NCBI GenBank assembly: GCA_928724745.1
Contig: CAKMXJ010000007.1
Coordinates: 496,001 to 560,000, forward strand
Length of the DNA: 64,000 nucleotides
Direction of reading: 5' to 3'
Origin: Anthracocystis setariae
Taxonomy: Eukaryota > Basidiomycota > Ustilaginomycetes > Ustilaginales > Ustilaginaceae
Both the position numbers and the translations under genes were made by a program. Below the pieces are notes generated by a model. That model made no database searches. It was not told where the DNA came from and worked only from the letters and a program-made list of their open reading frames with translations. Shown in pieces: positions 12,091 to 27,529 of this stretch. Within the stretch, counting starts at the first letter, position 1. Each line of letters opens with the position of its first letter.

Positions 12091-12964
12091 GCACAGATAC
12101 GATACTACTTACGTTCTTGTGGCTGAGTGGCGTAGGACCCGAAAGAGCCGCCAGAGCTCATGCCATACATCGCCAGCTTCTGTCCCTCATTGTCATGTCC
12201 TCCCCTCCCGCGCACACTCCGGGTTCGTTTACTCTGGCTTGGAAGGCCGAAATCCTACCATAAAATTAATTGTACTTGTAGACATCAACCATGAAAACCA
12301 CACTTTTTTGGCCATGATTTGTATGTACTGTACATGTACAGTACAGTACCGTACAGTATCGTATGCGTGAGGTGCTTCTGTGATAATGATTTCAGTGTCG
12401 AGAGAGCGAGATCTGATCGCCGATGAAATCCAGTCCTTGTTTGTTGGAAATCAGATTTATTTTCGACCCATTGATCGTGTTAGGTCAGCAACGCGCTGGC
12501 GGGTTGGATCAGGGTCTTTATAATAGCACCGATGACAGCTTGACTACTTTCGAGTTCGTCTGTTTGCCTCGTCTTAACATTGCAATCGACGGACCAAGGT
12601 GACGACGGTCCGCCTCCATGAGGCGGTCCTGTCGAAAACACAGTAGAGCGACCATCTGGGAAATGGCCTCCTAGCTGACTGGATTGCTTCCCAAGTCTGG
12701 GCAGTTTTTCTTTGTTTTCAAGGTGTGAGGTTTGTTTTCGAGGTATGTACTGCACTTGTCTCTTCGACTGTAATGCCAATCAAGGATGCCGACATTCGGA
12801 TCACTCAGCCTTCATTTGCATGCACCACATCGATACCTTCACTGCCTACAGTATATTTCGGCCACAGTCTCATGTACCGTACCCAGTGAAACAGCGATAG
12901 CTAGCCTCGTATACAACCTCGTCTGACTGTGAGGAGAGACATGGGAAGCGATGCACAGACTTTA
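12091..12964. other. Intergenic region between RPB3 and retroelement A
   Basis: No gene is seen. The 3' end of RPB3 lies at the left. A perfect 20-bp palindrome, GTACTGTACATGTACAGTAC, is at 12325-12344, followed by more GTACAGTA units to 12358. The last five bases (CTTTA, 12960-12964) are the left copy of the target-site duplication of element A. Confidence 0.5.
12960..12964. repeat. Target-site duplication of element A, left copy (CTTTA)
   Basis: CTTTA directly precedes the LTR here and directly follows the other LTR at 27530-27534, the 5-bp duplication made by Ty3/Gypsy integrase. Confidence 0.9.
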
Positions 12965-13149
12965 TGTTACACGAACACGCTACAAGGCATTCGGATAACA
13001 AGAAGATGGTATTTCTAAGGAAGGAATGACGACGGTGAGAGCTATATACATACCAGCTGCACATAGCTATATGCGTCTCACATGCCGTAAGGCATGTGAA
13101 TGAGGCTCGCGCGGGTGTCTCGCGCGAGAGGTTACGCATCGGCGTAACA
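12965..13149 (-). repeat. Element A, 3' LTR
   Basis: 185 bp, identical by eye to 27345-27529. On the element strand it starts TGTTAC and ends GTAACA. Immediately upstream in element sense (13153-13163 on the + strand) is the polypurine tract AAAAGGGGGGG, which primes plus-strand DNA synthesis. The LTR contains consecutive inverted repeats (see findings) and a TATATAG box. Confidence 0.95.
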
Positions 13150-13484
13150 TTGCCCCCCCTTTTAAGAAAGACGACGGTTTAAGAGAAGGAACGAAGAAAC
13201 CGTGCGACTGTGAAACCCAATCGAGATCCGAAAACGAGAACGGAACGGAAAAGAACATGAGGCGGGGAAGACGAGGAGAAGGCGAGAACATGTTGAAGGA
13301 CTGCCGAGAACGAAGGAAAGGAACGAACAGCAAGGAAGGCAAGAAGGGCGAAACCGTGTTGAAGGAATGCCAAGAACGGAGGAAGAACGATCCAGAGACG
13401 GAGACTGAGACAGAACAAGAACCCAAGGGAGCAAGGCGGGAACGAGACGAGACGGACAGCGAGACGAAAGGTGAGGATTGCGAG
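13150..13484 (-). other. Element A, untranslated region between pol stop and 3' LTR
   Basis: 335 bases with no convincing gene. It holds the 3' untranslated part of the element RNA and the polypurine tract. The + strand is purine-rich (many GAAGGAA, CGAGA runs). The corresponding 363 bases of element C (46936-47298) are equally non-coding and pyrimidine-rich in element sense. Confidence 0.6.
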
Positions 13485-16307
13485 TTAGCCGGCGGGAGGG
13501 GCGGCTTGTGCTTGACGTTGAGCCCAAGCGTCGAGGACCGCCTGATCGGTGACGGTCGAAGCCGGAACCCATTTATCGTGACCGGCATGTTCGAAACGAA
13601 CCAAGTACATCTTACCCCGGGTGCGACCGGTACGCTCGTTTAGAATGACTGAGATGGTGGCGGAAGTGACCGGTTTCTCGGACGGAACGTACGGTTCTAG
13701 ATGCTGAATTGAAACCACGGGGTGAAGGCGGCTACCGGTTGGAAACTGAAGTTCGTATGCGAGCGGACTGATAACGCGTTTGATTCGATACGGGCCCACA
13801 CGCTGAACACCAAGACGGCGATCAGGAGGCAGCAGGCCCTTCGGGAGGGAGTATCCGTCATGCAGCTCAAGCCAGACCCAGTCGCCGACGGAAAGCGAGG
13901 GGGGAGCGGCGTGCAATTGATCGTAGCGCTGCCGCATGTACGCTTGGACCATGGCCAGATGGTCGAGAGCTTGTTGTCGCATCGCGATGCGGCGATCGGG
14001 AAGGGAAAGGTCGCTGGTGACGGTGGATGGCTGGAGCGCGGTGAATGGATCTCGGAGCTTGAGACCATACAGCAAGTCGTTGGGAGCGGCGTTCATCGAA
14101 GCGTTCACGCGGTTGCCCAATAGCAACTCTACAAGGCTGAGATGAGTTGGCCAGTCGTCCGCCCAGGCGTTACAGAGCCCCCGAAGAAGGAGCTCGACGG
14201 ACTGAATAGCTCGCTCGCTTTGACCGTCGCTTTTGTGGTGGGCTGTGGAAGTGGCAAGTTCGCATCCGTAGCGCTCGTTCAAGCTCCGCCAGAATTGCGA
14301 CGTGAGACGAGAATCCCTATCGCTGATGATTTTCTTAGGCCAACCGATATGAGGAAGGAGCCGGTCCGCATAACGCTGACTCCATCGCTCAGCTGACCAG
14401 CTGGTCGCGCCTGCGAGCAGGTAGATACGGCGGGTGGCTGTATCAGTAAGAACTAAGATTGTGTCGTTCTCTTCAAGATCAAAAGGAGCCCGGGCTGTTG
14501 GTAAACGAACAATGAAATCGCAAGATACAGTTACAAATGGCGTGTCGGGGGCCGGGAGGGGTTGGAGAGCGCCATAAGGCCGATGACGTAGTGTGCGTGT
14601 TTGCTGACAATGGGAGCAGCGACGCACAAACTCCTCGACATGATGCAATGAGTGCGGCGAATAAGCCACAGCGCGGAAACGATCGAAGGTGGCTTGCGCG
14701 CCCAGATGTCCGGAGTGCGCCAGTGAGATAACGCGCGACAAGGCGAGCGGGCCAACGCAGATGCGCCACAAGCCGGTGGAATCAATCTTGTGCAGCAGAT
14801 CCTTGGTGGTGAGACCAAAGGAACCATTATCGAAAGGGCGAGTAGAGCCAGCGGCTTTGCGGAGTTCGCAGATGATCCGTTGCATTGCTGAATCTGCTTG
14901 CTGGGCGCGGCGGAGGTCGGACTTGAGGCCGGAACTAAGGACCAATTCCGTGGCGTGAAGGGTGTTGGCGGCGGTTTCGCTGGCGTGGATTCGGCTCAGC
15001 GCGTCGACGTGTGCCATGTACATACCTTTGCGATGAAGAATGCGTAATTTCGGCCGGAATTCCGCCAGCAAGAGAGCGAAACGCACGAGACGAGGATTTC
15101 GAGCAGCCGGAGTGGCGGAAAAGGGCTTGGCATCTGCGATCGAAGTCACGGCAAGGTGGTCCGTGAAGAGCAAATGGGGCCCTGGCGAAGCGTCGAGAAA
15201 ACGTCGCACGCGCCCAAGGGCCCAAACGGCGGCGGCCGCTTCAAGCTCAGTCGGCCAATAGGCTCGTTCAGCTGGTTTCAGAGCGCGTGAGTCAAACCAG
15301 ATCGGGACTTCGGCTGCAGCATCGGGTGAATCAGGATGGATGACATCAAGGCATGCGATCGCAGGCTCGGTGTCCTCCGAAAACCGGTTCTGATGAAGAG
15401 CGAGCGCAAAACCGTTCTGTTGGGAGGCGTCCACGTACAGTAAGAACGGTTTATCGTAGTTGGGAAAGCGGAGCGTGCGGTCTTGGAGGATTTGCTTAAG
15501 TTCGATGAGCGCCTGCCAAGCTGATGGTTTGTCGGGAACGGAGGTTCCGTTACAGTAGGACTTGCGAGCGTGTCCCGACTTAGGCGCCGACTTGGTAAGC
15601 AGGTTCTTAAGCCGCAGCAATGGAGCGATTAGCGCTGCGAAACGTGGTACATAGTTTTTGTAGTAAGAGAAAAAACCGACCACATGTTCGAGCTGGTTGA
15701 GGGTGGTGGGGTAAGGAATGGAACCGATGGCGTCACACTTAGCTGGGGCCGTGCGCGTGCCCAGGCCAGAAACGAGATGTCCCAAAAGGGGAACTTCGGT
15801 CCGGGCGACGTGAGCCTTGTCACGGGACAGGGTAAGGCCCAGGTCCTTGATTACTTGCAGAATGGCTTTGACGTGGCGCTCATGCTCCTCGAGGGTGCTC
15901 GAACGGACTCCGAAGTCGTCGACGTAGACAAAAGCGATTTCCGCGAGGCCAGCTGCGCGGAAGGCATTGGTGAGAACGCGTTGAAGGAAGGCGACGGAAC
16001 GAGACTGGCCCATGATCGTACAGGATAGCGTCTCTTGTCCCCGATGAGTGAGTACTGTCGCCTTCCACCGGTCATCGACGTGCAGTGGCATTTGATAGAA
16101 GGCTTTTCGCAGGTCAAAGGTAGTAATATACTTAGCACCTGCGAGACGTTCGCGAAGCTCATCTGGTGTGGGCAATGGATAATGATCGGGGTCGACAACT
16201 TCATTGAGCCGTCGCAGATCTACGACTGGCCTAGGCTTGCCGTTACGATACACGACGAAAACTGGCCAACCGCAAGCGGTGCCCGGCGGAGCCGGTGCTA
16301 GGCGGCC
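13485..16307 (-). pseudogene. pol: Element A pol, 3' part (RT, RNase H, integrase), separated by element B
   Basis: Read from 16307 down to the stop at 13485. It resumes pol exactly where the 5' part (24921-25819) is cut. Domains in order: reverse transcriptase with TTFDLRKAFYQMPL and the catalytic box YVDD; RNase H (LLYVDASQQNGFALALHQ, acidic residues also in TELEAAAA and FTDHLAV); integrase HHCC zinc finger (AHSGHLGAQATFDR ... CSHCQQT); DDE core (SCDFIV, ISDRDSR, QSERAIQ); GPY-type module (GPYRIKR). At the C-terminus is a chromodomain-like segment (KMYLVRFEHAGHDKWVP). No stop or frameshift is seen. The gene is broken only by the insertion of B. An apparent upstream extension to 16421 is translated LTR of B and is not part of this gene. 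Confidence 0.93.
16303..16307. repeat. Target-site duplication of element B, left copy (CGGCC)
   Basis: CGGCC is present here and again at 24921-24925, directly outside the two LTRs of element B. Keeping one copy restores the pol codons of element A (…CAGGGCCG CTAGC… in the sense strand), which proves the insertion point. Confidence 0.95.
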
Positions 16308-16802
16308 TGTTAAGCGCCAAGGGTCTGACAACCTCCTGACTGTGCGGCGTGGCACGCGGTGCGCGAGGCTTGGGCTTGGGAGCGCGTGGCGGGGGTGGTG
16401 GCCACGAGAGTCACCGAGCACGATCCTGAGGTTAACGGTTCTACCGTTGGGTCTGATATTCGCTATTACTCAAGGTAACTAAGAATACATTCGACGGCGG
16501 ACAACAAGGAGGTGGCGCGCGGCCCCCACCTTATAAGGCATCACGCGTGCCACGCGCCGCGCGCCTCTTCCTAGAAACACGCGGCTCGCGCGCGGCCCCG
16601 ATTCACGACATATGGGTTGGGCCCCTGTGTCGAACGCTGCGCGGCGCGCCTCCCTCTTCAGGAAGCGACGCGCGGCGCGCTCCTCCATTCCCAGCATCCC
16701 CCGTAGCTCGCCCCCTAATGGTAACACCCCGCGTGGCACGCCCTCTCCCCAGCGCGGCCGTCGGACAGCACGCTGGTTGAGAGCCTTCGCCCAGCCGTAA
16801 CA
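16308..16802 (-). repeat. Element B, 3' LTR
   Basis: 495 bp, TGTTA...TAACA ends, identical by eye to the 5' LTR. GC-rich with many GCGCGC-containing words. In element sense it carries a TTATAA box followed 40 nt later by GTCGAATGTA, the predicted RNA start and self-primer. The adjacent polypurine tract (GGGGGGGTAA in element sense) is at 16803-16812. Confidence 0.95.
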
Positions 16803-17078
16803 TTACCCCCCCGCCTCGGGGTGCGCGCACTCCGGAGCGCGCAAGCCCCACTCGTTGCGGCGGCGGGAGTGGTTCCAAAAAATTTTCGCCCGTGGGGCAC
16901 GGAGCGGCGCACGCGTCAATGGCTGGGCGCACAAAGCGTTGCGCAGCGGGGGACTCAGCCTCATTTGGGGTGCTGCGGCTCCCAATGATTGACCTACGGG
17001 GGTACACACCTTTCCTTCCTCCCACCACCTGATCACAACTCGACTCCCACGCCGGGTGAGCAAGATAGCTGAGCAGCA

Positions 17079-18957
17079 ATGACCGATAACAGTAAGTATG
17101 GGCACGTTCCGGGGTACGATACCGGCGGCGAGACGCTGACTGACGCGTGGCTCTGAATTTCCGGTTCCTGTGCCTGACCAGCCGACAAGTCCTCAAACGA
17201 GAAAACGCGCGCCGAAGCTGAGGCCGCGTCGACCCTTCGCGCGATCCTGGCCGTGGTCCCCGATCCCCCGGGCGACAAGCGAGGCCACTGCGACCGTGGT
17301 AGAGCCCCCCGCCAACCGCGACCTCTCCATCCGGGACGGCCGGTGAGTAACCCTTTCCCTCGGCGTGTTGATCGGTACGCATACTGACCCCAAACCTCCC
17401 TGGTGGGACTCCGCCATTTGACAGCGCCCACAACGATGAGTGCCCCTGTGATCGAGATTTCTTCTTCGCCTCCGCCCCAGGCTCGCGATGGCATTCCTTC
17501 CCCCGAGGCTCGCGACGGCGTTCCGTCTCCCGAGGCTCGCGCTCAACCTTCCGCCGAGGCTAGCGGCCAAACCCCCTTCTACCGCCGACGACCGTGCCGA
17601 CCAGAGCCAATTCCGTTACCAGGTGTGGGAGATCCTGCCGTGGGGTGAGCGGAGCTGTCCTATCGTGGACTCTCTGATGCGCGAGCGCAAGGACCAGCCT
17701 ATCGGCGATGTCCCCTTCGTGGTACGTCTCATCAAGGCCGCCCTGGTAGTTAGCGATCCCGACTGCGAGGAGTTCATGGCGCCCTGCTACGCGTGCGAGC
17801 ACAAGGGCTGCGACGCCGCGGCGTGCCACGCGGACCCCGAGCGTGGCGCAGTGACGGGCAGGCGCGACGCCGGCGCCAGAATCCCCGACGAGATCGCCGA
17901 AGCCTTCGAGGGCATGCCGACGCCCTGCAGCGCGTGCGGCACGAAACGTAAGTGCGACTGGCGCGGCCGGGTCCCGTGGCTGGGGAATCGGCTCGAGGGC
18001 CCGTGGCTGATGGAAGCCTACCTCTGGATGCGCGTCCTGGGCCATCGTCCCAATCCCGCCCTGACCCCGTCGATGGTGCCGGTAGGTGCGCTCCCGCCGT
18101 ACATGGAGGCCGAGCGCGCCGCTGTAGCACAGCGCTACGCCCGGCGTCGCTGGCCGCGTGCCAGCCGTCGAACCAGGGATGACAACAGCGACGACAACGA
18201 GAGCAGCGAGAGCGATGGGGAGTCTGTAGAGGGGGGGCGCGAGCCCGCCACTCCCAGTCCCCGCGCGACCCGTACCACCCGAGGCCGCGCTGCCGACCGT
18301 CCCCGCCCTCTGGGCTCCCCCAAGGCCCCTCGTCCCCGCCGCGCTGCTGCGCGCAAGCCGCTCAGCGCCCTTCCGGGGGTGAGCGCTACTGTTCGCGCGA
18401 CGCCGCGCAACCGTGACGAGGAAGCTGGGGGGTCGTCTACCCTGGGTTCCAATCCGCCGGCGCCATCGGCCTCTTACCGGAAACAGGCGGTGCATCTTCA
18501 ACGTAGTACGGAGGCCATCGAGCGCGCGCTCGACGACCTCAAGGTTACGATTCGGCAGTGCGCTGCCGCTGGCCTGCTGGAGGGTATGGACGTGCAGTCG
18601 TCCACCATGAAGCGGCACCTGATGATGCTGGAGTCTACGCCCGCTGCTCTGCGAACGACGCTGCACGAGCTCGTCGACTACTGGCGGGTGAGCGGGCCCG
18701 CGTATCTGATCGCCTCGGACTCGTCGGACTCGGACAGCGCGTCCCACGTTGCCGCCGCTCGCGAGCGTGTTGGGCGCCTCCTGGACCACGCGCCGCCGGC
18801 TAGCGCCCCGCATCCGGCCGCTGGCTCTCCCGTCGCTGTGGTGCCCGCGCGCCGCGCATCGCCCTCGTCTCCCTTGGTGGCGGAGGCCCCTCGCACGCCC
18901 AAGCGTCCGCGCCGGCAAGCACTCCCTGGTGGTGGAGAAGGCGCGGGCCCGGCCTGA
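17079..18957 (+). CDS. Cysteine-rich protein encoded antisense inside element B
   Basis: A gene on the strand opposite to gag-pol, between pol and the 3' LTR. The firm part is an open frame of about 460 codons ending at 18957. Its protein has two Cys/His clusters (PCYACEHKGCDAAACHADP and TPCSACGTKRKCDWRG), conserved-looking tryptophans, an acidic Ser/Asp tract (DDNSDDNESSESDGES), basic Pro/Arg-rich linkers and a helical C-terminal half (residues like RSTEAIERALDDLKV). The clusters could bind zinc; the second resembles half of a Zn2Cys6 motif. Upstream are good splice signals: candidate exons 17079-17091, 17182-17342 and 17425 onward, with introns GTAAGT...CTGACCAG and GTGAGT...TTGACAG. Exon 3 starts the segment SAPVIEISSS, a SUMO-interaction-like motif. 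Reading through needs one C less at 17572-17576, and probably at 17265-17269 and 17305-17310. Function unknown; a DNA- or chromatin-binding accessory factor is inference. Confidence 0.62.
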
Positions 18958-19389
18958 GTCTCTAGCTGTGCCGCGCGCCCCTTGCTCTGTTGCTCCAATG
19001 TCTGTTGGCCGGCTCCGGTAACCCCGTAGTCGGCCTTGAAATCCAAAATGTTCCCCGTGTTGTTGTGCTTGTGCCCTTGCGTTCGTGTCTGAGTAAAAGT
19101 GAGGCTTGAGCGTGGCGGGATCCGGTGGGTGCTGTGGCGCGCGGGGTTGCGGGATCTCTGGCGAGCCGCGCGGTACTGGGGAGCTGTGTAAGGGTGTCGG
19201 GCACGCCAGCAAGGGTGACGAGCGCGCCGTGAGCGAGACGACGCGAGGCGGGTTGGGAGCCCGTCCTGGGGGTGCGCGCGCCGACGCGGGTGACGAGCGC
19301 GCCATGAGTGTGACAACGCGAGGCGGGTCAGGAGCTCGCCCTGAGGGAGCGCGCGGCATTATGAGGTTGCCGCTTGCCCCCGGCCACCG
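18958..19389. other. Element B, spacer between antisense gene and pol, with 75-bp tandem repeat
   Basis: The 3' ends of pol (minus) and the antisense gene (plus) converge here. From 19213 an imperfect unit beginning GGGTGACGAGCGCGCC is repeated with a 75-base period (19213-19287 and 19288-19362). It reaches close to the pol stop codon. No other coding sequence is supported. Confidence 0.6.
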
Positions 19390-22266
19390 TCAGGCCTGCC
19401 TTCGTCTTGTGGGCGCTCCTGGGTGTGACCTGTGGAACTCGTCCACCAGCTCTTGGCTATTGGCGAGGTGATGCGCCGGCTCCCATGTGGGCTCGTCATA
19501 ACCGGCCCACTTGACCTGGTACTCGAGGCCCCGTCTGCTCGTCCGTGCCTCCAGCAGGCGTTCCACCTCGAAGTCTTGGCGGTCGTCTTGGAGGTTGGTG
19601 GCTTGTGGCGCGTGCTCCGTGGGGCGCGCGCCCGCTGGGTATGGCTCGAGCAAGCTCACATGGAACACCGGGTGAACGCGGGAGCCTGCTGGCAGGTCCA
19701 ACCTGTACGCGCGCTGGCCCACGGCCTCTAGAACCGTAAATGGTCCGGCGAGGGGGTTGGACAGCTTCTTGGACGGTCTGTCCTGGCGCAGGTGTCTGGT
19801 GCGCAGCAGTACTTGGTCACCCCCGGTGTAAGACCGATCCGTCCTGGATCGGTTTGCGAGGCTCGCCATGGTGCGCGCGGCACGCGCGATGTTGTCTTGG
19901 CAGAACGCGATGAGCATTTGCAGGGAAGCCGGGGAGGGTGGCGCACCATCGGGGGCGAGCGCGGGGGAACCTGGGAGCGTTTTGGGCGTAAACCCGAAAA
20001 GGGGGAGGGTGGATGGGAGACCGGTAGCGCCAGCGGGGCGGTTGTTGATGGCGAGCTGCGCGTGCGGGAGCCACGCGGCCCAGTCATCTTGCTGGTAGTT
20101 GACGTAGAGGCGCAAAAAGACCTCCAGGGTTTGATTGGTGCGCTCGGTCTGGCCGTCGGTTTGAGGGTGATAGGCGGTGGATAGCGCCGGGCGGACCTGG
20201 AGTTGTTGCAGCACTGCTCGCCAGAGGGAGGCGATGAAAGTGCGCCCGCGGTCGGAGACAATCTGGTCAGGCAATCCAAAATAGCAAAACACACTTGTAA
20301 AGAGCATGCGTGCGAGGTCGGGAACGGTGTCGGATTGCCGAGCTGGGATAAAAATCACAAACTTGGTGAGGCGGTCTACAACTACAAGGATGGAATCGAA
20401 GAGTGTGCCGCCCACGCGCGAGCGCGGGAGGCCCTCGATGTGATCCATGGAGATGGACCCGAACGGCCGATCGGGCGCGCCCAACGGGAGTAGCAGCCCA
20501 TAAGGTTTATGGCGCGGGGCTTTGGCGCGCTTGCAGGCAGAGCAGGTGGCGACGTAGGTGACAACATCTTGCGCGAGGGTGGGCCAGCTGTGGTGGCGGC
20601 GGACGAGCGCGGTGGTAGTAGCCACGCCGGGGTGCCCCGCGGTGGGGTGGTCATGATAGCGGGACAGGATGGCGGCGATGTCAGCCGCGCTAGAAGGGGT
20701 GGCCGGAAGGGCGGTCGCCGGGAGGAGAGCCGCGCGGCGCGCGGCCGGGGCCAGGAAGTCGACGGGGTCGACGCCGGTTGTCTCGGGGTGGATGAACAGG
20801 GAGGGCGGCAAGAGGGTAGCTACGTTAGCGGGGTCGCCGTGGCGTTGGGCGTCCGCGAGGTTTGGGTGGCCATCGGATCGGCGTGACAGGGCGTCCGGCC
20901 GCGCGGCCTCTGTGCCCGGGCGGTAGGTGATGGAGAATGCGAACTCCGCCAGGGCGATGCCCCAACGGGCCTGACGGCGATTGAGCTGGCGCTTGGTTTG
21001 GAAGTACTGGAGAGCTTGGTGGTCCGTGAGGACATCAAACGGTGCGTGCAGCCCGTGTAAGTAGTGGCGCCACGCTTGAAGGGAGTCGACGATGGCCAGG
21101 AGCTCCTTATCGTGGATCTCGTAGTTGCGCTCGGCGGGCTGCATCTTCCGTGACCAATACGCCACTGGGTGGAGACGGTGCGTGCTCGGGCGCGGCGCTG
21201 TTGTAGTGGCGGGGTTGATTGGGTACCATTGGGACAGGACGGCCGCCACGACGTAGTCGCTGGCGTCGGTTTCCACTACTGTGGGCAGCGCCGGGTCAAA
21301 ATGTTGCAGGATAGGGGCCGTGGTGAAGGCGCGCTTGAGGGTCTCGAATGCGGCCAGCTCGGAGGGCTCTAAGGAGATGCGCCCGCTTGCTTTGCCCTTG
21401 AGGCGGTCTGTGAGCGGGCGAGCCACGCGCGAATAGTGCTTGATGAATCGTCGGTAGAAGTTGGCAAAGCCAAGGAATACCTGGATGTCACGAATGGTCG
21501 TGGGTGCGGGCCAGGTAGTTACGGCCTCGACCTTCGCCGGGTCCATGGAGATGCCGGCCGGGCTGACTCGGTAGCCCAGGAACTCCACCGAGGTGACCCC
21601 AAATTCGCACTTGTCGGCGGCGCAATATAGCTGGTTATGGCGCAAACGGCGGAGTACCTCGCGCACGTGTGTGTCGTGCTCGGCGGGATCGCGGGAGAAC
21701 ACGAGGATGTCGTCCAGGTACACCACCACGGACACGTCGAGCAGGTCGTGCAGGATGTGGTTCATTAAGCGCTGGAACGTAGATGGCGCGTTGCACAACC
21801 CGAATGGCATTACCATGTATTCGAAACTACCGTAGCGCGTGCGGAATGCCGTTTTCCATTCGTGCCCCTCCTTGATACGGAGGAGGTTGTACGCCCCCTT
21901 CAGGTCGAGTTTGGTGAAGACGCGCGCTCGCGCGAGGCAGTCCAAGTGTTCGGCGATGAGGGGTATGGGGTACTTGTCTTTGATGGTCACGCTGTTGAGC
22001 GCGCGGTAGTCTACACATGGTCGGAGGCGACCGTCTTTCTTAGGTACAAAGATGATAGGGGGCCGCGGCGGGGCTCTGCGATTCCCGAATGAAGCCAATA
22101 GCGAGCATCTTGTCAATGTACTTCTTGAGCTCGTCGAGCTCGCGTGCGGACAGAGAGTATAGTGGCCCGTGTGGGATCTTGGCTCCCGGCAGGAGGTTGA
22201 TCTCGTGGTCCTGGGGGCGCGGGCGCGGCAGGATGTCGGCGTTGGCCTCGTTGAACACCTCCGCAA
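19390..22266 (-). CDS. pol: Element B pol: reverse transcriptase, RNase H, integrase, chromodomain
   Basis: The frame is open from 22266, but the conserved protein joins it only at about 22057. There the RT begins (IIFVPKKDGRLRPCVDYRALN in type); the preceding RT/protease linker lies in the other frame. RT shows FTKLDLKGAYNLLRI, the catalytic YLDD and the FLGYRVS motif. RNase H follows (VVETDASDYVVAAVLSQW; YEIHDKELLAIV; LTDHQAL). Integrase has the HHCC finger (HPGVATTTALVRRHH ... CSACKRAK), the DDE triad (SMDHIEG, VSDRGRTF, QTERTNQ) and a GPF/Y module (GPFTVLEAVGQRAYRLDLP). It ends in a chromodomain (FEVERLLEARTSRRGLEYQVKWAGYDEPTWEP), used by chromoviruses to target histone marks. The stop is at 19390. 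A +1 shift relative to the protease frame is needed at a C5 run (22058-22062). Confidence 0.93.
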   Translation of the reverse strand: MRRCSTRPTPTSCRARAPRTTRSTSCREPRSHTGHYTLCPHASSTSSRSTLTRCSLLASFGNRRAPPRPPIIFVPKKDGRLRPCVDYRALNSVTIKDKYPIPLIAEHLDCLARARVFTKLDLKGAYNLLRIKEGHEWKTAFRTRYGSFEYMVMPFGLCNAPSTFQRLMNHILHDLLDVSVVVYLDDILVFSRDPAEHDTHVREVLRRLRHNQLYCAADKCEFGVTSVEFLGYRVSPAGISMDPAKVEAVTTWPAPTTIRDIQVFLGFANFYRRFIKHYSRVARPLTDRLKGKASGRISLEPSELAAFETLKRAFTTAPILQHFDPALPTVVETDASDYVVAAVLSQWYPINPATTTAPRPSTHRLHPVAYWSRKMQPAERNYEIHDKELLAIVDSLQAWRHYLHGLHAPFDVLTDHQALQYFQTKRQLNRRQARWGIALAEFAFSITYRPGTEAARPDALSRRSDGHPNLADAQRHGDPANVATLLPPSLFIHPETTGVDPVDFLAPAARRAALLPATALPATPSSAADIAAILSRYHDHPTAGHPGVATTTALVRRHHSWPTLAQDVVTYVATCSACKRAKAPRHKPYGLLLPLGAPDRPFGSISMDHIEGLPRSRVGGTLFDSILVVVDRLTKFVIFIPARQSDTVPDLARMLFTSVFCYFGLPDQIVSDRGRTFIASLWRAVLQQLQVRPALSTAYHPQTDGQTERTNQTLEVFLRLYVNYQQDDWAAWLPHAQLAINNRPAGATGLPSTLPLFGFTPKTLPGSPALAPDGAPPSPASLQMLIAFCQDNIARAARTMASLANRSRTDRSYTGGDQVLLRTRHLRQDRPSKKLSNPLAGPFTVLEAVGQRAYRLDLPAGSRVHPVFHVSLLEPYPAGARPTEHAPQATNLQDDRQDFEVERLLEARTSRRGLEYQVKWAGYDEPTWEPAHHLANSQELVDEFHRSHPGAPTRRRQA

Positions 22267-23283
22267 ACTCCTGGTACGCAGCGGGGATGTCCTTAGGCGA
22301 TGGTACGGCGGCGAGCTCGTCCGCGTGCGCCTGGACGAGGGCGCAGTGTTCGGCGGTATTGTCGGTAAACGGCGGCGAGGGGATGGCCCCGGCCGGGGGC
22401 GTCACGGCCTCGTGCTCGCCTTGCCCGGGCAGTGGAAATCGCATAGCGCGAGCCTCGTAGTCGAGGACGGGGCGCGTGGCCTCGATCCAGTCCAAGCCTA
22501 AGATGGCGTCGTAGCTCGATATGCGCGGGGCCACGAAGAAGCGGTGGTGGGGGGCGACAGTGAGGCCCGCCAGCCCCACGGCTGCCCTGCAGGTATGAGT
22601 GATGGGCTCCGAGGCTGCGTCAAACGTCGCTGTCTTAACCGGGGTGGCCAACCCGTGCAGGTCGATGCCCGCGCCCTCGAGGAGATCCTTCGCCACGAAG
22701 GACGCGGTAGCGCCGCCGTCGATGAGAGCGCGCGCCCGCAGGTGGTCAATGGTGACCCAGCACTCGTAGGCCGGAATGCTGGGGTGGCGACTCACACGGA
22801 TGTGGTCGCCCTGAACAGATGGCTCCGCGATGGGTTCCAGTGCGGCGACATGCGTGCGGAGTGGGAACCAATCGGGGTGAGTCAGTAGTTGAGCCACGGC
22901 CGCGCGCGGAGGGAAAAGGGCGTCCTCAAAACCCAGGGGGTCGAGGGTGGGGTCGTAGACCGCTTCGTCGTAGGCATCCCTTTCGGCCGGGGGGTCGCAT
23001 TCGGTAGGCGCGTGGTCTGAAGCGGGATCTTCTCCTTCGGGCGGCAGGAGGTAGTTGCCTGTAGTGGGCTCAACCGTAATGACATTAGCGCGCAGCGCGC
23101 GCTCCTGCGTGGCCTGTGGGCAATCGCGCGCGAGGTGCTTCTCGCCACAGGTGTAGCACAGGTTGTTCTCGCGCCGGTAGCGGCGTGTGTCCTCCGTGAG
23201 CTTCTGCAAAGCCGTGTTGGCGCGGGCCGGAGCATGGAAAGTTGGGCGCGCGGCGGCCGGGGCGGCGGCGGGGCGGGCGGCGT
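22040..23283 (-). CDS. Element B zinc knuckle and aspartic protease frame
   Basis: An open frame that lies in -1 relation to gag. It is open from about 23341 and overlaps gag by about 58 bases. It contains the nucleocapsid zinc knuckle CYTCGEKHLARDC (CX2CX3HX4C), a linker of about 120 residues, and the retroviral-type protease. The protease active site reads ALIDGGATASF, with Gly where Ser or Thr is usual (D-T/S-G), and the flap-side motif ILGLDWI follows. It ends with the RT entry segment (DELKKYIDKMLAIGFIRESQSPAAAP) and then a premature stop at 22040, because the frame is shifted at a run of five C. No ATG is needed if it is reached by frameshifting from gag. Confidence 0.85.
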
Positions 23284-24387
23284 TCAGCCCACCAGTCGGG
23301 GCTCCCGTCGGGGTCGTACCGGGCTCCGGTCGGGGCGCTCGTCATTGCGGCCCGTAGCGCGGCCCGGAATGTGGGCGGTTCCGGCCGAGTCGAGGCCGGT
23401 TTCGAGCATCTGCTGCTCGGTGCGTACAGCAGCGTTGATGTACTCCTGCAGGTCGTGGGTCTGCACATGTAGGAGGTGGCGCCGGAACGTCTCCCGGAGT
23501 CCCAGCTGGAACGTAGTGAGCAGCTGCTGCTTGTCGGTAGCGTTGGCTCGCGTGGCCAGCGCCTGAAACTCGGCAGCGAAGCGGCTGACGCTCCCGGTTT
23601 GACGCAGCTTCTGCAGCTGCATCCTGGCCGTATGTCCTGGGTGAGGATCGCCGTACGTGCGGCGTAGGGAACCGCAGTAGCGCGGCCAGTCGTGGAAGAT
23701 CGGGTCGTGGGGGCTCGCCTGGCGCATGTTGCGCAGGTGGTCGCGAGGCGCGCCACCCACGTGTGCCAGGGCCCAGAGGACCCGGCGGTTGTCTGTGGCA
23801 AAGCGTGCCGGGTTGAGGTCGAAGTGCAGCTCGCACTGCTCAATGTAGGCCTCCAGCTCTTCCCGCTTACCGTCCCAGTCGGGGGCAGCGATGCGGAGTT
23901 CGGGAGCTTTGTCGAGGCTCGCGTCCAGGGGAGCGGTCCACGGCACCAGAGGAGGGACCGGGAGGGAGTACCCGGGCTGCGACTCGCGGGCGTGGTGGGG
24001 GTCCTGCTCCATCCGGCGGGTGGCTCGCTCGTAGCGCTGCTCGGATGTCTCGCGATCCGTCACCGGGTTGGGAGCCTCTCTGGGGGGCTCCGCTTCGGCG
24101 GCCCTGGGCGAACGCTGGGAGGGGGTAGCCGCGGGGGGTGGTTGGCCCCTTTGCTCGCGGCGCAACGCGCGCATCTCCAGGACCAATTCCTGTAGGACGG
24201 CCATTTGCTCCTGGAGCACCGCCATCAGCGGGACGGCGGCCTCCCGGGGTGGGCGCGGGGAGTTGGTGGTGGTCGCGCTCGCCGAGGAGGGTGCGGCGAC
24301 CATGGGAGGGTCTTCCCCGGCGGAGGACCAGTCGTCCAAGGGGTTTTGGTTGGCGACCTGGCTGCGAGTCACCGGCATGGGGAGCAT
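23284..24387 (-). CDS. gag: Element B gag (capsid)
   Basis: About 367 residues from the ATG at 24387 (MLPMPVTRSQ); an in-frame extension upstream into the LTR is open but has no ATG. A Pro/Gln-rich N-terminus with a helix (LQEQMAVLQELVLEMRALRREQ) is followed by the retrotransposon gag core: LRIAAPDWDGKREELEAYI, HFDLNPARFATDNRRVLWALAHVGG, RYCGSLRRTYGDPHPGHTARMQL, VSRFAAEFQALATR. It ends in an Arg/Pro-rich tail at the TGA at 23284. The nucleocapsid knuckle lies in the -1 frame, so a Gag-Pol fusion would need -1 frameshifting near the end of this gene. Confidence 0.9.
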   Translation of the reverse strand: MLPMPVTRSQVANQNPLDDWSSAGEDPPMVAAPSSASATTTNSPRPPREAAVPLMAVLQEQMAVLQELVLEMRALRREQRGQPPPAATPSQRSPRAAEAEPPREAPNPVTDRETSEQRYERATRRMEQDPHHARESQPGYSLPVPPLVPWTAPLDASLDKAPELRIAAPDWDGKREELEAYIEQCELHFDLNPARFATDNRRVLWALAHVGGAPRDHLRNMRQASPHDPIFHDWPRYCGSLRRTYGDPHPGHTARMQLQKLRQTGSVSRFAAEFQALATRANATDKQQLLTTFQLGLRETFRRHLLHVQTHDLQEYINAAVRTEQQMLETGLDSAGTAHIPGRATGRNDERPDRSPVRPRREPRLVG

Positions 24388-24414
24388 TGTTTGAGCGTGC
24401 GGGGTGACGGGTAG

Positions 24415-24425
24415 GTCGAATGTAA
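24415..24425 (-). promoter_or_regulatory. Element B primer-binding site, self-priming type
   Basis: In element sense the 5' LTR is followed by TTACATTCGACC, which does not begin with TGG as tRNA-primed sites do. Its TACATTCGAC (24415-24424 on the complementary strand) is a perfect 10-nt complement of GTCGAATGTA inside the LTR (24604-24613), which lies 40 nt after a TTATAA box (24649-24654), where the RNA should start. This is the arrangement known for Tf1-type self-priming elements, in which the RNA 5' end folds back as primer. Confidence 0.75.
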
Positions 24426-24920
24426 TGTTAAGCGCCAAGGGTCTGACAACCTCCTGACTGTGCGGCGTGGCACGCGGTGCGCGAGGCTTGGGCTTGGGAG
24501 CGCGTGGCGGGGGTGGTGGCCACGAGAGTCACCGAGCACGATCCTGAGGTTAACGGTTCTACCGTTGGGTCTGATATTCGCTATTACTCAAGGTAACTAA
24601 GAATACATTCGACGGCGGACAACAAGGAGGTGGCGCGCGGCCCCCACCTTATAAGGCATCACGCGTGCCACGCGCCGCGCGCCTCTTCCTAGAAACACGC
24701 GGCTCGCGCGCGGCCCCGATTCACGACATATGGGTTGGGCCCCTGTGTCGAACGCTGCGCGGCGCGCCTCCCTCTTCAGGAAGCGACGCGCGGCGCGCTC
24801 CTCCATTCCCAGCATCCCCCGTAGCTCGCCCCCTAATGGTAACACCCCGCGTGGCACGCCCTCTCCCCAGCGCGGCCGTCGGACAGCACGCTGGTTGAGA
24901 GCCTTCGCCCAGCCGTAACA
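24426..24920 (-). repeat. Element B, 5' LTR
   Basis: 495 bp, identical by eye to 16308-16802. In element sense the promoter is marked by TTATAA (24649-24654). The predicted transcript start is about 24613 (GTCGAATGTA). Confidence 0.95.
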
Positions 24921-25819
24921 CGGCCCTGCTGAGTGAGCGTGTCGAAAACCTCGTCGATTGCCTTGCGATCCCGAGGAGAGACTCTGTAAAGACGAGGCTT
25001 GAACAACCGCGGGTTGGAGTCCAGCTGCTTAGAAGGCAAACGCATGGCCTCGCCGGTGGTAAGGAGGCCCAGTTCTGGACGCCAAATCTCCGGAAATTGA
25101 GCGAAGAGATGCAAGAAACGTTGACGGACATCCTCGGATACTTGATCATCGAAAACTGGAAGCGCGTCCGAATGCGGATGATCGGGAATGATTGTAAAAG
25201 GAACTGAGTAATCATCCATGTCCGGAGGCGCTCGCATGTCGGGAGCGAGTACGGACGGGCCCGGCGGAGCTTCGACGTGGGCCACAACGGCTGCAGCCGG
25301 CTTGGAGACACCTGCGACGCTAGCACGCAGGCCGCACGACTGTAGAGTGATGACGCCCTTGACCGCGTCGTATAGAATGCCATGAGTGAGCACGAAATCC
25401 ATCCCCAATATCAGGCGAGGACCCAGGGATGGAAGGACGAAACACTGCACCTTGGCGCGCGCGACGTGCCCGTCGAGGCAAGGCACGTGAAGGGCGATGG
25501 TCGTGACGCCGAGCACTTTAGTTGGAGTGCTAGCAGTGAAGATGGTGATGTCGCTAGGCTTGAGTTCATGATGAAAGAGGGCCAGGGTTGGTTGATCGAT
25601 GAGAGAGACTGAAGAGCCTGTATCGAGGCAGGCCTCGAAGGCGTTCTTGCCAGCAGAACGCACGGACAGCCGGAGATACGTGGGAGAGAGTTGAAAGGTG
25701 ATTGGGGTGGTGGTAGCATCAACAATGATAGGATCAGACGATTGCGTTAAGCCGACGAAAGGAGGATCGGGCGGCGTTTCGGGCGGAGGAGACTTAGGAA
25801 TTGCCTCCTCCGCGAGTTC
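24921..25819 (-). pseudogene. pol: Element A pol, 5' part (protease and start of RT), cut by element B
   Basis: It follows the gag UAG in the same frame with no start codon of its own. About 50 residues of Pro-rich linker lead into FQLSPTYLRLSVRS and the aspartic protease active site CLDTGSSVSLID. The flap-side motif LILGMDFVLTHGILYD follows, then the linker to RT (FPEIWRPELGLLTTGEAMRLPSKQLD, RLYRVSPRDRKAIDEVFDTLTQQG). The frame stops abruptly at the CGGCC target duplication of element B and continues at 16307. Apparent longer frames that run on into 24721-24920 are chimeras with LTR sequence. Confidence 0.93.
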
Positions 25820-25822
25820 CTA
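25784..25822 (-). promoter_or_regulatory. Element A gag-pol junction: UAG plus stem-loop (readthrough signal)
   Basis: The gag stop is UAG (25820-25822). After 7-8 nt a perfect 8-bp stem follows, CGGAGGAG (25805-25812) with CTCCTCCG (25784-25791), and a 13-nt loop. The pol frame continues in phase directly after the UAG. Element C has the same layout with a compensated base pair, which supports a functional recoding signal. Confidence 0.75.
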
Positions 25823-27082
25823 GGCTGAGCCATATGAGTTATCCGCCGAAGTGTCGGGCGAATAGGTGAGCTCAGGGGCGGACTCGTTGTCAGAGGACGT
25901 GCCCGCTCCCGCATGAGCGAGTTGCAAACGCTGATAGTCCAGTTCGCTATATTCCTGGTCGGTGATTTCGACCGCCTCTGTGTGATGCGCAGCAATAGCT
26001 GGTGGCTGGCGAGCTGATAGCTTGATGGCCTTGGAGCAGTCGCTGTCCCAGTGAGGACCGGAACAATGGCGGCAAGGACGTGGAGGCGGACGGTGGACCG
26101 GGCGATCGGCCAGGGCTTTCGGAGGGTTGGAAGCCTGAGGTTGGCCGGAGGCTGCGGCGCAAGGAGCATTACCAGAGCGCTGATGTTGATCACCGCGGCG
26201 TGAAAGAAGAGTTGAGCGCTGGGCGAGGCAACGGCGGCGGAACAGGTTAAGATCGCCGGCGTCAGGTCCTTTGAGGCAGCTGGCCAGGGCATTGCGCATC
26301 TCGAAGGGCAGCCCAGCGAAGATGTGCTGGACGACTAACTCGGGCGCGTGAATGCCGGCGATGCGAGCTAGACGAACCTTGCGTTCATGGTAAGCATGGT
26401 AATCACTGTTGATGTCGTAGCGGAGGGTGCCCAACGCGTTGTGTGCCTCCGTGACACTGATTCCGAAACGTGCGCGCAGAAGGCGAGTCCATGCCTCAGG
26501 GCTAGAACGAAGCAGGTCATGTTCGTCTTTGTCCAGGTTAGTATACCATTCCGTAGCGGTGGAACGGAGGCACTGAGGGAGGACTTCGCAGACCGCGGCG
26601 GCCCCTTTGGCGATCGCCATATCCTTGATACGGCGACAGAAGACCTCGACATCATCGTTGTTCGCTGGGTTGAAGATGGCGATTTCGTCGGGCTTCAAGG
26701 CGCGTGATTCCCTGGGAAGGAGATGCGGCGGCGGGGAGCGGTGCTGGCGCTCGCTACCGTCCAAGCCCGGAGGAGGGAAGGAGTGAGCTCTAACACCCAT
26801 GAACCCTCGCTCAGGACCGTACGGGTGATGAGTAGGCTGAGCTGCAGGCGGGATGAAACCTCGCTCAGAACCGTAGGGGTGAGCAGGCTGAACTGCAGGC
26901 GGGGCTGTATGCTTCGCCAGCAGGAGCTCCAGCAGTCGCTGCGTCGCGGCGGCCTGGTCGACAATTGCCTGGGCCCAGGCGGGCGCGGTTTCCGTGGCTG
27001 CCGTGGTTGGATGCTCGTTAACCGGCGTGGTGCCCGAAGATGTATGCGCTCCCGAAGGAGGCGTAGAGACGTTTTCGGGCAT
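25820..27082 (-). CDS. gag: Element A gag
   Basis: 420 residues from the ATG at 27082. The N-terminus is Ala/Pro/Thr-rich with a helix AWAQAIVDQAAATQRLLELLLAKH. The capsid-like core includes EIAIFNPANNDDVEVFCRRI, CLRSTATEWYTNLDKDEHDLL, ALGTLRYDINSDYHAYHERKVRLARIAG and QHIFAGLPFEMRNALASCLKG. The nucleocapsid zinc knuckle CRHCSGPHWDSDC (CX2CX3HX4C) lies near residue 338. It is a close relative of the element C gag. It ends at UAG, beyond which pol is in the same frame. Confidence 0.92.
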   Translation of the reverse strand: MPENVSTPPSGAHTSSGTTPVNEHPTTAATETAPAWAQAIVDQAAATQRLLELLLAKHTAPPAVQPAHPYGSERGFIPPAAQPTHHPYGPERGFMGVRAHSFPPPGLDGSERQHRSPPPHLLPRESRALKPDEIAIFNPANNDDVEVFCRRIKDMAIAKGAAAVCEVLPQCLRSTATEWYTNLDKDEHDLLRSSPEAWTRLLRARFGISVTEAHNALGTLRYDINSDYHAYHERKVRLARIAGIHAPELVVQHIFAGLPFEMRNALASCLKGPDAGDLNLFRRRCLAQRSTLLSRRGDQHQRSGNAPCAAASGQPQASNPPKALADRPVHRPPPRPCRHCSGPHWDSDCSKAIKLSARQPPAIAAHHTEAVEITDQEYSELDYQRLQLAHAGAGTSSDNESAPELTYSPDTSADNSYGSA

Positions 27083-27344
27083 GCTTGGCGCAATAGAAGT
27101 CGCTGGCGTAGACCTAGCTTCGTCTGAAACGTCTGTCTGTTGCTTTGACTTGAGCAGTTGATCGGGATAATCGAGAACGTCGGCGAGAGGGCCGCCTGAA
27201 GCTCTGGTTACGTACCGAGGAACAATCTTGGGCGAAACGTTAGAGATGTTGGAGGATTATTGGAGCATCCGATCGAGATCGGATTGGATTGAGTGGTTAT
27301 GAGAAGAACAGAGGTAACGCGGAAGTGCTGACAGAAGCTACCAA
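27083..27344 (-). other. Element A leader and primer-binding site
   Basis: Between the 5' LTR and gag. Directly after the LTR the element strand reads TTGGTAGCTTCTGT, identical to the same place in element C. TGGTAGC would match the 3' end of an initiator-methionine tRNA (as in Ty1), but only 7 nt fit. Confidence 0.6.
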
Positions 27345-27529
27345 TGTTACACGAACACGCTACAAGGCATTCGGATAACAAGAAGATGGTATTTCTAAGG
27401 AAGGAATGACGACGGTGAGAGCTATATACATACCAGCTGCACATAGCTATATGCGTCTCACATGCCGTAAGGCATGTGAATGAGGCTCGCGCGGGTGTCT
27501 CGCGCGAGAGGTTACGCATCGGCGTAACA
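27345..27529 (-). repeat. Element A, 5' LTR
   Basis: 185 bp, identical by eye to 12965-13149, and followed by the second CTTTA target duplication (27530-27534). Confidence 0.95.

Follow-up and report, generated by a model that had tools for sequence, protein, structure and literature searches.

An antisense gene between pol and the 3' long terminal repeat of related chromodomain Ty3/Gypsy elements in the basidiomycete Anthracocystis setariae

Genes oriented antisense to gag-pol and located between pol and the 3' long terminal repeat (LTR) have been described in both plant and fungal retrotransposons. In plants, Grande (gene23), RIRE2 and Retand carry an antisense gene in this position, with the Grande product being a nuclear protein and the Retand product, TRP28, being predicted to bind DNA, and reviews of plant elements call the function of such genes unknown (PMC7264820, PMC11963269). 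Among fungal elements, Boty of Botrytis cinerea (Boty-like elements are also known from Sclerotinia) contains the antisense gene brtn in the same slot (Zhao et al. 2011, cited in PMC7264820, PMC8365987, PMC4227169). The gag-pol of Boty-like elements includes a chromodomain (PMC4227169), the last annotation of B05.10 reportedly lacks brtn (PMC8365987), and a transcript matching a truncated Pol together with BRTN is described from Monilinia (PMC5987419). Here, we analyze a Ty3/Gypsy element, denoted B, in a 64,000-nucleotide stretch of the Anthracocystis setariae genome (hereinafter, the window; contig CAKMXJ010000007.1, positions 496,001 to 560,000; coordinates below refer to the window unless a locus is named), along with a gene that lies antisense to its gag-pol and has counterparts in three related families, D, E1 and E2. 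Given the precedents of Grande, RIRE2, Retand and Boty, these genes are not wholly new in kind; antisense genes in this slot are already known from plants and from the fungal Boty, to which the genes of B, D, E1 and E2 add a variant. A preliminary description of the window, made from its sequence alone, had named no such cysteine-rich protein in fungal Gypsy elements; the idea that these elements have nothing comparable finds no support, given brtn.

Element B occupies the minus strand and is bounded by two identical LTRs of 495 bp (3' LTR, 16308-16802; 5' LTR, 24426-24920), which are flanked by the duplication CGGCC (16303-16307 and 24921-24925). Its gag-pol ends at 19390, and Pfam matches identify the reverse transcriptase, RNase H, integrase and chromodomain in the frame at 19390-22401. 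In the stretch that separates the pol stop from the 3' LTR, an open frame spans 17452-18957 on the plus strand, and 609 codons in frame with pol are open on the minus strand. The antisense gene resides wholly within this stretch and consists of three exons on the plus strand, 17079-18957 (1,879 bp): exon 1 (17079-17091), starting with the ATG at 17079; intron 1 (17092-17181, GTAAGT...CAG); exon 2 (17182-17342); intron 2 (17343-17424, GTGAGT...CAG); and exon 3 (17425-18957), which encodes the bulk of the protein and ends with the stop codon at 18955-18957. At least 24 DNA matches to this stretch are present in the genome, counting the window, and the window copy was aligned with 23 others, the 18 longest aligned copies being pairwise 84-99.9% alike. 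The 5' part is kept in 20 of the 24 aligned copies, and all 20 retain the ATG as well as the splice sites of both introns (GT[AG]AGT...[CT]AG in intron 1, 89-90 nt; GT[AG]AGT...CAG in intron 2, 81-82 nt), bearing out the 1.9-kb spliced plus-strand gene of the preliminary description. When spliced in silico, 11 of the 17 full-length copies are open to the natural stop and encode proteins of 563-568 amino acids; one of these, L007, crosses a locally shifted stretch. Conservation of the introns implies that these elements are built to produce an antisense transcript.

The pattern of substitutions among B copies identifies the coding strand. In six pairs of copies, the ratio of nonsynonymous to synonymous substitution rates (omega) is 0.10-0.19 in the frame of the antisense gene (459 codons, 17578-18954; bootstrap intervals within 0.02-0.32) versus 0.95-3.03 in the open sense-strand frame over the same gene; hence, the antisense frame is the coding one. 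Three more pairs yielded values of 0.09-0.16 in the antisense frame, and of nine pairs compared over the C-terminal part of pol, eight have an omega of 0.07-0.15, the remaining, nearly identical pair having 0.35. The antisense frame of B is, therefore, a protein-coding gene under purifying selection, about as constrained as pol; the preliminary description had proposed such a comparison of copies. A further minus-strand frame over the gene also gives low values (0.15-0.32) because its third positions coincide with those of the antisense gene; with 2-10 stops in each listed comparison, it is no candidate gene. Across representatives of six subfamilies, 85% of the alignment columns are identical in the exon 3 core and 91% in the helical part (18471-18720), compared with 49% in the body of intron 2. 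The body of intron 1, with 74% identical columns versus 64% in exon 2, is at odds with this simple picture. In some pairs, the synonymous distance (dS) of the antisense gene greatly exceeds that of pol, which suggests that sequence may have been exchanged between subfamilies, so that the pairwise omega values need not share one history. Between the window copy and L008, dS is 0.129 in the antisense gene (17578-18954) and 0.021 in pol (19393-20299).

When compared to the rest of the genome, the B protein matched 37 further places at 31-44% identity, with the matches spanning up to about residues 40-290. The five places that were read all belong to family D, in which pol is ~70% identical to that of B, the gene lies antisense after pol, and its product is homologous to the B protein. 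Two more distant families, E1 and E2 (pol 42-47% identical), contain antisense frames with paired cysteine groups downstream of pol, represented by a frame at 878-2710 of L060 in E1 and by a two-exon gene in L061 in E2, and the proteins of these two families are homologous to each other (32% identity, E 1e-18). The E2 gene has a single intron of 70-73 nt, and in five of five chosen copies, it is in frame with the splice sites kept. L063, tried as a further family, was rejected and excluded from these five because the pieces resemble a degenerate E2 copy. Omega is 0.11-0.22 in the D gene and 0.03-0.10 in the E2 gene. The position of the genes and the six-cysteine layout of their products suggest that those of B/D and E1/E2 could have a common origin.

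The orientation of the gene relative to pol is invariable. Within 3 kb of the 3' end of the gene, pol was found at 18 of 22 B loci and 35 of 41 D loci, with the gene antisense in all 53 cases, and at three of three E1 and 24 of 26 E2 loci, again antisense in each of the 27. All 80 B, D and E gene loci with a neighboring pol thus have the gene antisense to it; loci with no pol at that distance (four of 22 in B, six of 41 in D and two of 26 in E2) were left out of the orientation counts. Counted from the side of pol, the gene accompanies 53 of 56 B/D loci and 27 of 28 E loci, that is, 80 of the 84 found, and the sole E locus without the gene sits at a contig end. These pol counts are lower bounds, the pol search having scored 104 of 180 candidates, and include the locus C28:1931509 in the E list rather than among the F-type loci considered below. 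In the examined B, D, E1 and E2 copies, an LTR directly precedes the gene, the distance from the LTR to the first in-frame ATG being 276, 290, 144 and 147 nt, respectively. With D, E1 and E2 carrying an antisense gene in the same slot, the gene is no one-off capture, a possibility weighed in the preliminary description, but a genuine accessory gene of these elements.

Gypsy-like elements that do not carry the gene are available for comparison in the same genome. Pol loci of type F (31-36% identity) gave no antisense-gene match in protein searches; sequence was read for one of them, L062, and for window element A, the other ten loci being covered by protein search only. In neither L062 nor element A was an antisense gene seen on reading or a chromodomain found. 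Element A hosts B (12964-16469 and 24921-27500), its repeat starting at 12964. By contrast with these two elements, B, D, E1 and E2 all have the chromodomain at the end of the integrase (PF00385, above cut-off) that defines chromoviruses. With about 80 loci from four related families, some versions of the gene intact and others broken, and with the gene-less elements as controls, this genome makes the role of antisense genes testable.

Of the features of the aORF-3R class, which include antisense transcription, the B, D and E genes show an antisense open reading frame (ORF) located after pol and before the 3' LTR and its presence in most copies; in B, the frame is conserved about as well as pol. 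Boty is among the closest described systems, sharing with the elements analyzed here a fungal host, Gypsy affiliation, a chromodomain and an antisense gene in the same slot, although its host is an ascomycete; the comparison with brtn covers its place in the element. Retand belongs to a non-chromovirus lineage, and none of the four proteins analyzed here matches the TRP28 domain (PF04195). An extra ORF without known function is labeled in a figure legend of a survey of chromodomain elements in fungi (PMC2864245); the likeness extends to the presence of an additional ORF. In a paper on retrotransposons of smut fungi (PMC9603552), the main text does not contain the word "antisense", and searches of open-licence papers yielded no description of such a gene in an element of a basidiomycete.

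The proteins encoded by the antisense genes share two groups of cysteines, which are present in B, D, E1 and E2 and kept across the B subfamilies, in agreement with the two CxxC-type clusters noted previously. In B, the layout is C-x2-C-x4-C-x4-C-x33-C-x2-C-x5-C, with the first three cysteines of the first group (17785-17826, C-x2-C-x4-C-x4-C) and all three of the second (17926-17955, C-x2-C-x5-C) occupying invariant columns of the B/D alignment; the spacings are 2, 10, 22, 2 and 6 in D, 2, 6, 18, 2 and 7 in E1, and 2, 6, 19, 2 and 6 in E2. These layouts resemble a fungal Zn(II)2Cys6 DNA-binding domain with a lengthened linker, the usual pattern being C-x2-C-x6-C-x5-12-C-x2-C-x6-8-C. Each half of this pattern fits in E1 and E2 (C-x2-C-x6-C ... 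C-x2-C-x6/7-C), but the linker comprises 18-19 residues in E1 and E2 and at least 22 in D and B instead of 5-12, B and D depart further from the pattern, and none of the four proteins has a Pfam-level Zn(II)2Cys6 match. The VIEIS stretch (17448-17462), which we take to be SUMO-interaction-like, is conserved as VIEI in the six subfamily representatives; it is located some 70-80 residues into the full B protein and not at its very start; the preliminary description had placed it near the start. Farther downstream, a helical part (18469-18693) is predicted with low to middling confidence, and PKRPRR (18898-18915) resembles a nuclear signal by pattern match. Nuclear-signal-like and RRSxRL-like stretches, likewise pattern matches, occur in the antisense proteins. 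In E1, the N-terminal part of the protein consists of 219-nt repeats carrying the RRSxRL-like motif (L060, 884-1452).

That protein constraint lasts across copies suggests that the gene helps the copy that encodes it or its near kin. With respect to what the product does, we give about even chances to the accessory gene encoding a regulator that acts on the element in the nucleus and binds zinc and nucleic acid, a best guess from sequence features and not a result. The gene would be driven by an antisense promoter of its own, situated in the 3' LTR or close to it, and its introns would outlast retrotransposition because the sense genomic RNA holds only their complement. The product would enter the nucleus, hold zinc via its cysteines, bind nucleic acid or chromatin, and regulate transcription, silencing or integration of the element itself. 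A comparable layout is seen in human T-cell leukemia virus (HTLV) type 1, where the spliced gene HBZ, which runs antisense at the end of the retrovirus that bears the 3' LTR, encodes a bZIP factor; the likeness is confined to layout and implies no homology, the B product being cysteine-rich and derived from a fungal retrotransposon. The 3' LTR of HTLV holds an antisense promoter (PMC7264820).

Several observations weigh against this interpretation. No Pfam family was found for the B protein (E up to 1) or for those of D, E1 and E2 (E up to 10). Searches of solved structures gave no match for the E1 protein at E up to 10, only PPR1, a zinc-cluster protein, at a nonsignificant E of 2.4 for the E profile, and, as the best match of the B/D profile, sirtuin-3 (E 0.21), outside the cysteine groups. 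The AlphaFold model of the exon 3 protein of B is poor, with a mean predicted local distance difference test score of 45. Zinc and nucleic acid binding are accordingly proposed from the cysteine spacing alone. The B/D and E profiles match weakly on the second cysteine group (probability 3%, p 0.013), so the two pairs need not share one function. The gene is broken in six of the 17 full-length B copies, among them the window copy, which has identical LTRs and yet an interrupted 5' part that is partly out of frame in exon 2 and, when spliced, stops at residue 62. Finally, omega in exon 2 of B (0.29-0.47 in nine of ten pairs among five copies; 0.79 in one pair with few changes) is indecisive by itself because similarly low values are obtained in a second frame of exon 2 that has no stops. 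Searches for relatives outside this genome returned no match for the B protein, E1 residues 380-590 or the E profile in protein searches (E up to 1), for the E profile, the B/D profile or pol in viral contigs, or for the E profile in prokaryote genome contigs; lacking a positive control for fungal content, they say little.

A broader scenario, possible if doubtful, is that the gene represents an ancestral module of a whole clade of fungal chromodomain elements, perhaps including brtn, placed on the opposite strand so that its introns and promoter outlast retrotransposition, and that its product is a nuclear zinc protein that, together with the chromodomain, would steer landing or silencing of the element, as an independently evolved counterpart of HBZ. 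Among the alternatives to a nuclear regulator, an integration cofactor, acting with the chromodomain-bearing integrase on the choice or opening of target chromatin and exerting no control over transcription, is unlikely while still credible: the integrase chromodomain accompanies the gene in B, D, E1 and E2 and was found in neither of the gene-less elements, window element A and L062, but this correlation, extending over four families and two elements, may reflect shared descent only. We regard as rather improbable a protein that counteracts silencing of the element by the host or restrains its copy number. Other elements provide precedents for both copy-number control and anti-silencing proteins, and the nuclear-signal-like and SUMO-interaction-like pattern matches fit such a role, but selection would not obviously keep a self-limiting gene in copies that are able to lose it.

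The remaining explanations fare considerably worse. That the antisense RNA is the functional product, forming double-stranded RNA or interfering with the sense transcript, with the protein being minor, accords with a gene that is antisense to and convergent with pol, and RNA roles are discussed for the plant cases (PMC7264820); because an RNA role alone fails to account for the predominance of synonymous changes in one frame of B, D and E2, we consider it very unlikely. Recruitment of a host gene by the element is yet harder to credit: introns are normal in host genes and capture is a known route, but no free host copy was seen among the 22 B loci (18 beside pol, three with LTR sequence and one fragment), and a weak match of E1 on contig 6 falls in a host frame that looks unrelated; an ancient capture of a host gene is possible. 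A chance frame, or a sense-strand extension of pol by the 609 in-frame codons, as GC-rich DNA open on both strands might offer, is rejected by the contrast in omega between the two strands.

Additional features of the elements merit description. In the window copy of B, gag-pol (19390-24528) is split into three frames despite the identical LTRs, whereas several other B copies have a single frame of 1,712 codons; besides the frame with the pol domains, these are a protease and zinc-knuckle frame (22040-23341; neither the zinc knuckle nor two of the three protease models reach Pfam's cut-off) and a gag frame (23284-24528), the upstream end of which extends into the LTR. The split possibly reflects recent decay or an assembly error at homopolymers. 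Just inside the 5' LTR, ten bases (24415-24424) are complementary to an LTR site at 16495, ~40 bases past a TATA-like stretch, an arrangement expected for self-priming of the Tf1/sushi type. A tandem pair of 75-bp repeats, 80% alike, lies between pol and the antisense gene (19201-19350). One D copy has LTRs of 359 bp (L055, 1878-2236; L068, 21-379) that are 97% alike, with flanks without target-site duplication, and frames beside a D copy (L056, 4559-5925) resemble, by eye, a Tc1/mariner-type transposase.
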